Shown: one piece after another, positions 32,320 to 33,374 of the stretch
Layout of the letters: every line of letters begins with the position of its first letter
Position numbering within the stretch: position 1 is the first letter of the stretch
DNA from: an uncultured Candidatus Pelagibacter sp.
GTDB taxonomy: Bacteria > Pseudomonadota > Alphaproteobacteria > Pelagibacterales > Pelagibacteraceae
Assembly: GCA_913030805.1 (NCBI GenBank)
Contig: CAJWDL010000010.1
Location: forward strand, 1-33,374
Direction: 5' to 3'
DNA: 33,374 nucleotides
Translations under genes and position numbers: made by a program
Notes under the pieces: generated by a model
What the model was told of the DNA's origin: nothing
Databases searched by the model: none
Seen by the model: only the letters and a program-made list of their open reading frames with translations

Positions 32320-32358
32320 AAAAAAATAATATAATATTTATAGTTTTATCGCCTCATC
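32320..32358 (+). pseudogene. Remnant copy of the alpha/beta hydrolase gene start
   Basis: The stretch resembles the first codons of the hydrolase (30527-30565), with a handful of mismatches, and encodes KNNIIFIVLSPHHV then a stop, against KNNTIFMALSPHNG in the intact gene. It has no in-frame start codon and lies between the EamA gene and the convergent regulator. It marks the far end of the hydrolase-transporter pair with a direct repeat of the near end. Confidence 0.75.
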
Positions 32359-32815
32359 ATGTGTAATTTAGCGGAAGATTGCTGGTATATTTAATCTCTT
32401 CCATGGAAAAACTTGATGTAACTTCAGAGAAATCTATTTTATCGGTCAGCTTTTTATAAAACTCATTATATTTTTCTATACTAGGAACCAATACTTTGAA
32501 AATGTAATCAACCGTTCCGCTTAACCGATAGAATTCTACAACCTCCTCCATTTCGGCAACTGCCTTTATAAATCTTTTTGACCAATTCATACTGTGTTGA
32601 CTTGTTCTGATTTGAACAAAAGCGATAATGGGAAGATTAATTTTCAGTCGATCAACAACGGCCACTTTTTTTTTTATATAACCTTGCTTATAAAGTTTGT
32701 TAATTCTTGCCCAACACGGGGTTGCTGACAAGTTTACTTTCTTAGATAATTCAGCAATCGGAATGTCGGCGTTATCTTGTAAAATTGACAATATTTTCTT
32801 ATCGATCTCGTTCAT
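32357..32815 (-). CDS. Lrp/AsnC-family transcriptional regulator
   Basis: The 152-residue protein has an N-terminal winged helix-turn-helix (NEIDKKILSILQDNA to VNLSATPCWARINKLYKQG, about 2-47) and a C-terminal RAM/AsnC ligand domain with GTVDYIFKVLVP. Such regulators respond to amino acids or related metabolites and often control nearby transporters. It is convergent with the EamA gene, ~40 bp away, and its promoter region faces the SAM-responsive leader. Control of the hydrolase-transporter pair is a reasonable guess; no operator is identified. Confidence 0.93.
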   Translation of the reverse strand: MNEIDKKILSILQDNADIPIAELSKKVNLSATPCWARINKLYKQGYIKKKVAVVDRLKINLPIIAFVQIRTSQHSMNWSKRFIKAVAEMEEVVEFYRLSGTVDYIFKVLVPSIEKYNEFYKKLTDKIDFSEVTSSFSMEEIKYTSNLPLNYT

Positions 32816-32923
32816 GATATTTTATTCTATTATTTTAGAACATTATAGATTTTTTAACTATAAAACAATAATAACTTGATGATTATTAACTTATTTTTCT
32901 ACAAAACTTTACTTTATTAGAAT

Positions 32924-32929
32924 TATATC
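32924..32929 (+). promoter_or_regulatory. Weak -10 candidate for the riboswitch leader
   Basis: TATATC lies ~20 bp before the SAM-II-like aptamer, in an AT-rich 128-bp gap that must also hold the divergent regulator promoter. No good -35 is placed correctly. Low confidence. Confidence 0.2.
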
Positions 32930-32943
32930 CTAAAAGAACTAAA

Positions 32944-32996
32944 AAGCGCTGATTTTAAATCAAATTGCAAGCGCGGTAGAAATCCTGCTAAAGCGA
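32944..32996 (+). promoter_or_regulatory. SAM-II-like riboswitch aptamer
   Basis: The segment shows the conserved SAM-II skeleton: P1 stem GCGC (32946-32949) with GCGC (32971-32974), GATTT in the loop with AAAT in the 3' part, the TTGCAAGCGCG block (32965-32975) and GCTAAA (32987-32992). SAM-II aptamers bind S-adenosylmethionine in a pseudoknot and usually lie before methionine or sulfur genes of alphaproteobacteria. A terminator follows directly. The call is from memory of the consensus, not a covariance search. Confidence 0.8.
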
Positions 32997-33003
32997 TGTT
33001 TGT

Positions 33004-33033
33004 AAACCACCGTTTTAGCCGGTGGTTTTTTTT
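33004..33033 (+). terminator. Intrinsic terminator controlled by the SAM-II-like aptamer
   Basis: AAACCACCG (33004-33012) pairs perfectly with CGGTGGTTT (33020-33028) around a 7-nt loop, followed by T's to 33033. CCTGCTAAA (32984-32992), part of the aptamer pseudoknot, can instead pair with TTTAGCCGG (33014-33022) with one mismatch. That pairing would break the terminator, so it is a plausible antiterminator. Confidence 0.85.
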
Positions 33034-33066
33034 GGGATCAGATTTCAATTAGAAACCAGATGTTTA

Positions 33067-33114
33067 AGTTTGAATTTGTGTATCCGGCATAATGTCAAAA
33101 CACTAAAAAAGGTT
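33067..33114 (+). promoter_or_regulatory. SAM-V-like riboswitch aptamer
   Basis: P1 can form between TTTGA (33069-33073) and TCAAA (33095-33099), and a pseudoknot between GTGT (33078-33081) and ACAC (33100-33103). It ends CTAAAAAAGG (33103-33112), as expected of SAM-V/SAM-II-fold aptamers, which share a ligand pocket. A tandem SAM-II then SAM-V arrangement is known in SAR11. The GG at 33111-33112 is ~22 bases from the start codon, so it may not be the ribosome-binding site here. Confidence 0.6.
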
Positions 33115-33134
33115 AAATAAATAAAAAGGAAGTA

Positions 33135-33374
33135 ATGAGCAATTCAAATATAATTACAAGTGAAGATGTTTTTCAATTGGTTAATGGTTTGACATTAAAT
33201 CAAAAAATAGAACGTTCTTTAAATTTAATAAATGATGCTCATAATAAATATGGAGATAATTTAATAGTTGCAAATAGTTTGGGCAAGGATTCTTGCGTTG
33301 TTTGGGATTTGGCAAAACAAGTGTCTTCTGACATTAAAGGTTTTATAGTAACTACACCTTTTAAACCTGTAGAG
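33135..33374 (+). CDS. PAPS reductase-family protein, CysH-like (N-terminal part, cut by window end)
   Basis: Eighty codons are present. The PP-loop motif SLGKDSCVVWDLA (~48-60) and GFIVTTPFKP (~69-78) place it in the adenine-nucleotide alpha-hydrolase/PAPS reductase superfamily. The start ATG 33135 has AAGGAAG (33127-33132 region) close upstream. The family reduces PAPS or APS to sulfite, but PP-loop relatives such as CysD share this part, so the exact enzyme is open. A SAM-responsive leader implies a sulfur/methionine role. This is notable because well-studied SAR11 strains lack assimilatory sulfate reduction. Confidence 0.65.
   Translation, partial: MSNSNIITSEDVFQLVNGLTLNQKIERSLNLINDAHNKYGDNLIVANSLGKDSCVVWDLAKQVSSDIKGFIVTTPFKPVE

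Follow-up and report, generated by a model that had tools for sequence, protein, structure and literature searches.

A SAR11 tandem SAM-II/SAM-V riboswitch leader followed by a probably acquired cysH gene

SAR11 is the textbook example of marine bacteria living on reduced organic sulfur, and the presence in such a genome of a cysH gene behind a SAM-binding leader raises two questions, namely, whether the arrangement is genuine and what the leader would control. The window examined here was a whole contig (G000:C10) of 33374 bases from a SAR11-type genome of 1.0 Mb that is ~80% complete. An earlier note had placed a SAM-II aptamer, an intrinsic terminator and a SAM-V aptamer in series ahead of a PAPS-reductase-family gene at the end of this contig. 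Coordinates are those of the window and features lie on the forward strand unless otherwise stated.

Rfam detected no matches anywhere in the window at gathering thresholds. A permissive scan gave matches to SAM_V at 33058-33116 (27.6 bits, E=0.015; gathering cut-off of 41, RF01826), SAM_alpha at 32936-33012 (18.7 bits; cut-off of 36) and SAM-II at 32940-33001 (18.5 bits; cut-off of 44), with membership of the SAM-II family being judged against RF01726 and RF00521 and that of SAM-V against RF01826. The earlier note had proposed that the lack of a significant Rfam hit would speak against the riboswitches; on gathering scores this was literally the outcome, but controls showed that the test is insensitive in SAR11. 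A genome of the same family (G028) was recognizable as HTCC1062-like because its SAM-V matches are located in those intergenic regions that PMC2704228 lists for HTCC1062 (metY, mmuM and bhmT). The known metX SAM-II of the HTCC1062-like genome scored 31.8 bits against the Rfam cut-off of 44, and its bhmT SAM-II was invisible to Rfam even at E<=0.5. The SAM-V elements at the same locus as that of the window in two congeners, G004 (34.3 bits) and G002 (28.7 bits), also fell below the gathering cut-off. As Rfam misses even the studied HTCC1062 bhmT SAM-II, its miss in the window refutes nothing. The gathering cut-off is insensitive for SAR11 SAM-II, which is a matter of library sensitivity and does not discriminate, and this score was dropped as a ground for refutation.

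Covariance models were built from the leaders of SAR11 relatives with a SAM-V match, the SAM-II-terminator and SAM-V parts being aligned separately and the window being left out. Model R1 (SAM-II plus terminator; 17 leaders) matched the window at 32942-33034 with 89.7 bits (E=3.8e-20), and model R2 (SAM-V; 19 leaders) matched at 33036-33113 with 36.0 bits (E=6.2e-6). The next best matches in the window scored 12.1 and 12.6 bits, respectively. The R1 score was close to the 89.1 bits of the HTCC1062-like bhmT leader. The R2 score was the lowest of 45 compared matches. Together with a terminator scan, these matches confirmed the tandem where the earlier note had located it. A chance resemblance at a site devoid of a riboswitch would fit the empty Rfam result at gathering score; this reading is hardly credible and is refuted on sequence grounds by E values from models that excluded the window, by syntenic homologues of the leader and by the insensitivity of Rfam in the control.

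The SAM-II aptamer (32942..33001), which coincided with the R1 match and the weak Rfam matches to SAM_alpha and SAM-II, has the form of an H-type pseudoknot. In the P1 hairpin, GCGC at 32946-32949 pairs with 32971-32974, and this helix was 98% paired over relatives, with changes on both sides. Both strands of the P2 pseudoknot are present, and pairing of the loop UUGC (32965-32968) with GCUAA (32987-32991) was read from the sequence. The intrinsic terminator (33004..33033) was detected by the terminator scan, lies within the R1 match and consists of a 9-bp stem (33004-33012 with 33020-33028), supported over relatives, and a U tract extending to 33033. An antiterminator pairing (32987..33019) links the two elements: GCUAAAGCG at 32987-32995, which contains the SAM-II pseudoknot strand, is complementary to CGUUUUAGC at 33011-33019, the loop and edge of the terminator, over 9 pairs, one of them G-U. 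Over 51 distinct relatives these positions were 93% paired, with changes on both sides at 2 pairs, as opposed to 14-51% for slid partners. The folding energies of the terminator and antiterminator folds in the window were near-equal (-23.5 and -22.8 kcal/mol, respectively).

The complementarity between the 3' strand of SAM-II and the terminator loop gives good sequence support for a leader that turns transcription off in response to SAM. The leader is predicted to bind SAM and to switch. At low SAM, GCUAAAGCG would pair with CGUUUUAGC, the terminator would be blocked and cysH would be transcribed; at high SAM, the UUGC:GCUAA pseudoknot would capture the GCUAAAGCG strand, the terminator would form and transcription would stop. 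The HTCC1062-like bhmT leader resembles the window leader in the order of SAM-II, terminator and SAM-V, in its SAM-II score and in having the same antiterminator complementarity. The window leader differs in preceding cysH and not bhmT, in having a more diverged SAM-V and in being followed by a separate Shine-Dalgarno sequence beyond SAM-V. The bhmT SAM-II and SAM-V each bind SAM if assayed alone (PMC5069961), and the SAM-II domain of the full-length bhmT tandem was unresponsive to SAM in vitro (PMC11508383), so that transcriptional switching is unproven even in this reference case.

The leader occupies a conserved locus. A divergent Lrp/AsnC-family regulator gene (32357..32815, reverse strand; Pfam HTH_24 and AsnC_trans_reg) marks this locus and is followed by a 30-nt block, AAAACTTTACTTTATTAGAATTATATCCTA (32903..32932), which is identical at the same locus in G002 and G004. 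This block is a probable promoter, a role that is putative because the sigma-70 consensus has no match there on the forward strand. G002 (L142) and G004 (L070) have the same lrp gene (79% aa identity between the window and G004), 30-nt block, SAM-II, terminator and SAM-V, and the alignment parts just after ACUAAA. Behind the leader, G002 carries genes for a peroxiredoxin, Sulf_transp and DUF6691, while G004 carries a rhodanese and a Sulf_transp gene. Unlike in the window, the Shine-Dalgarno sequence at these two loci adjoins SAM-V, the extra spacer is absent and the cargo, also sulfur related, is a different one. In three genomes of two other genera, lrp lies beside rhodanese and Sulf_transp genes without the tandem before them, either as a direct neighbor (one genome) or with a peroxiredoxin gene between (two genomes).

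In the window, the leader is followed by a gene that starts at 33135 and stays open up to the contig end at 33374. These 80 5' codons encode the start of a CysH (APS/PAPS reductase) protein. The Pfam PAPS-reductase match of the 80-aa fragment alone was weak (E=0.01), and the fragment contains an SLGKDS motif and is 74-88% identical in amino acids to CysH of Thioglobus-type gammaproteobacteria (L002-L005). The full-length homologues pass the cut-off of NCBIfam NF002537, the CysH equivalog, and have the iron-sulfur enzyme motifs CC and CxxC. The family assignment made in the earlier note was thereby upheld. A CysH tree, built on ~80 residues and with most forks weak, placed the fragment with Thioglobus-type gammaproteobacteria and T4-like viral contigs. 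In the viral contigs (L017, L156 and L158), cysH genes of the same clade lie beside ribonucleotide reductase genes, with nrdB after cysH in L017 and a large putative nrdA-like ORF before cysH in L158. Nucleotide homology to the gammaproteobacterial cysH loci begins at 33115, ~20 nt before the ATG, which is a rough limit because the spacer is AT-rich. This upstream extent of the homology suggests that the gene may have been captured with its own ribosome-binding site, for which 20 nt of AT-rich homology is weak evidence.

A native SAR11 cysH was rejected as a source. Strong PF01507 matches in an order sample of 397 genomes were, where classified, CysD, DndC or unassigned, and no CysH was recognized in the order genomes surveyed from this sample. 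A close CysH copy (E<=1e-40) was absent from the 384 other genomes of a class sample, and cysH is absent from seven tabulated SAR11 genomes (PMC5069961). Transfer of leader and gene as a unit was also rejected. The leader was sought at gammaproteobacterial and viral cysH loci and was found at none of them. In the genomes of the gammaproteobacterial relatives, R1 reached 27.7 bits at most (E=0.0035), which is not significant. The Thioglobus-type loci share with the window the CysH similarity and the ~20 nt before the ATG but differ in having no SAM leader, and in L002 cysH is preceded by genes for sulfite reductase and DUF934. The viral cysH genes, set in a phage neighborhood beside ribonucleotide reductase genes and with no SAM leader, did not qualify as a source of leader plus gene either.

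We infer lateral transfer of cysH and consider it probable that a genuine SAR11 tandem riboswitch, at a conserved slot for sulfur genes, now has behind it a laterally acquired cysH of gammaproteobacterial type with its own ribosome-binding site. Counting against this explanation are the occurrence of leader plus cysH in one genome only, with the gene truncated where the contig stops, the weakest SAM-V score of the set and the silence of SAM-II in the bhmT tandem (PMC11508383). As the gene occupies the final 240 bases of the contig, an alternative is an assembly chimera, in which a SAR11 leader was joined to a cysH fragment of a co-occurring gammaproteobacterium or phage. A chimera would also fit the absence of the join from the other SAR11 genomes surveyed, the origin of the close homologues in marine gammaproteobacteria and viruses and the 3.6% contamination of the MAG. 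However, the fragment has a GC3 of 16%, in line with the contig and not with the closest gammaproteobacterial copies (24-31%), and the known copies are only 76-84% identical to it in nucleotides. Furthermore, inspection of the sequences by eye showed no long shared word at the junction, and congeners also carry sulfur genes at exactly that position. An assembly artifact is considered unlikely.

The SAM-V aptamer (33036..33113) forms a P1/P2/P3 pseudoknot in which GAU (33059-33061) pairs with AUC (33082-33084) in P1, UUGUGU (33076-33081) pairs with ACAC-U-AA (33100-33106) in P2 and GGC (33086-33088) pairs with GUC (33094-33096) in P3. Two compensatory changes are unique to the window (G-C to A-U in P1 and C-G to U-A in P2). 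Comparison with the structure in PMC6061858 showed that the ligand-contact bases are kept, these being the UUU third strand, the UUG of P2 and CUAAA. An extra spacer (33113..33134), which overlaps the homology to cysH loci from 33115 and is absent in congeners, contains a second Shine-Dalgarno sequence and was probably gained together with the gene. This likely cysH Shine-Dalgarno sequence, AAGGAAG at 33126-33132, lies about 15-20 nt beyond SAM-V and hence outside the aptamer, and the 3' end of SAM-V in the window does not occlude it. The cysH start is 27 nt after ACUAAA, as compared to 11-15 nt in most other SAR11 SAM-V leaders, which mostly have GGAG within a few nucleotides of the aptamer.

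The earlier note had suggested that SAM-V could block translation. The aptamer is present and its ligand core is retained, but repression is doubtful, as the gene has a Shine-Dalgarno sequence of its own downstream of the aptamer. This location suggests that the translational block is weak or lost, and the translational arm is probably decoupled from cysH. Both arms might nevertheless work, with SAM-V lowering translation through a ribosome stand-by region in spite of the external Shine-Dalgarno sequence. The retention of UUU, UUG and CUAAA and the maintenance of the helices through compensation are in keeping with this proposal, whereas the 27-nt distance and the displacement of the Shine-Dalgarno sequence relative to other SAR11 leaders make it rather doubtful. 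At the other extreme, the leader could be a relic through which transcription runs freely, with cysH expressed from its own ribosome-binding site and without SAM control. The divergence of the SAM-V, the greatest among the 45 matches, the extra spacer and the silent SAM-II of the full-length bhmT RNA in vitro (PMC11508383) would accord with a relic, but the SAM-II and terminator score as highly as those of the HTCC1062-like bhmT leader, the antiterminator pairing is retained with a G-U pair and SAM-V has undergone two compensatory changes. A relic is considered improbable. Under the preferred reading of a captured cysH behind a genuine leader, the window offers a natural test of each arm of the tandem, because the translational arm seems to be uncoupled while the transcriptional arm seems intact.

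The earlier note had proposed that SAM, if the arrangement was real, would repress inorganic or novel sulfur assimilation in a lineage usually described as unable to reduce sulfate. The description of the lineage agreed with our survey, as sulfite reductase was detected in none of 61 genomes, that of the window included, and CysH was not recognized in the order genomes. Repression of sulfate assimilation found no support in the gene content: neither sulfite reductase nor, in a search of 41 genomes, ATP sulfurylase was detected in the window's ~80%-complete genome. The 3' part of cysH was not found elsewhere in this genome, the window copy being the only one. Sulfate assimilation cannot be claimed for this organism, as these two enzymes were not found and about one-fifth of the genome is missing. 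Two other types of PF01507 protein were observed in SAR11. L031 (G066), and perhaps also L033 (G146), encodes a DndC-type DNA phosphorothioation sulfurtransferase (595.7 bits for L031), and in L018-L024, from one SAR11 family, CysD corresponds to the 300 C-terminal residues of a ~495-aa protein, whose N-terminal 190 residues are unexplained (L018 examined).

A broader reading, on which we are evenly divided, is that the lrp/promoter/SAM-II/terminator/SAM-V leader of SAR11 is a fixed slot with exchangeable cargo, so that acquired sulfur genes would come at once under SAM control via the terminator, their own ribosome-binding sites notwithstanding; the cargo in the window would be a gene of reductive sulfate assimilation. 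If true, a cysH gene controlled by a SAM riboswitch would be a first indication that part of the sulfate-reduction pathway is returning in some SAR11, and the exchange of genes behind a single conserved leader would illustrate how streamlined genomes connect foreign genes to RNA control that is already in place.

The order SAM-II, terminator, SAM-V is common to many SAR11 relatives. The association of the tandem with bhmT, cited in the earlier note, was seen, but it is not confined to this gene: the tandem also precedes metY and, at the lrp locus, rhodanese or peroxiredoxin genes. The tandem thus occurs more widely than was described in 2016 (PMC5069961). At other sites, SAM-II and the terminator were found with no SAM-V behind them. 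One example, in the same genome as the window (L081, G000:C3:10371-10457), precedes a gene for a 379-aa protein that is putatively of metX type by comparison with HTCC1062. Others, in several SAR11 genera (L128-L133 and L137-L139), precede a putative methylenetetrahydrofolate reductase-like gene whose product starts like that enzyme (FEFFPAK, FGAGGGER). In several of the tandem leaders before metY or bhmT (L110, L143, L144 and L049), 77-140 nt separate SAM-V from the start of the long ORF. This interval holds a short reading frame and, in some of them, a GGAGAAG/CTTCTCC inverted repeat, and may represent an additional control element.
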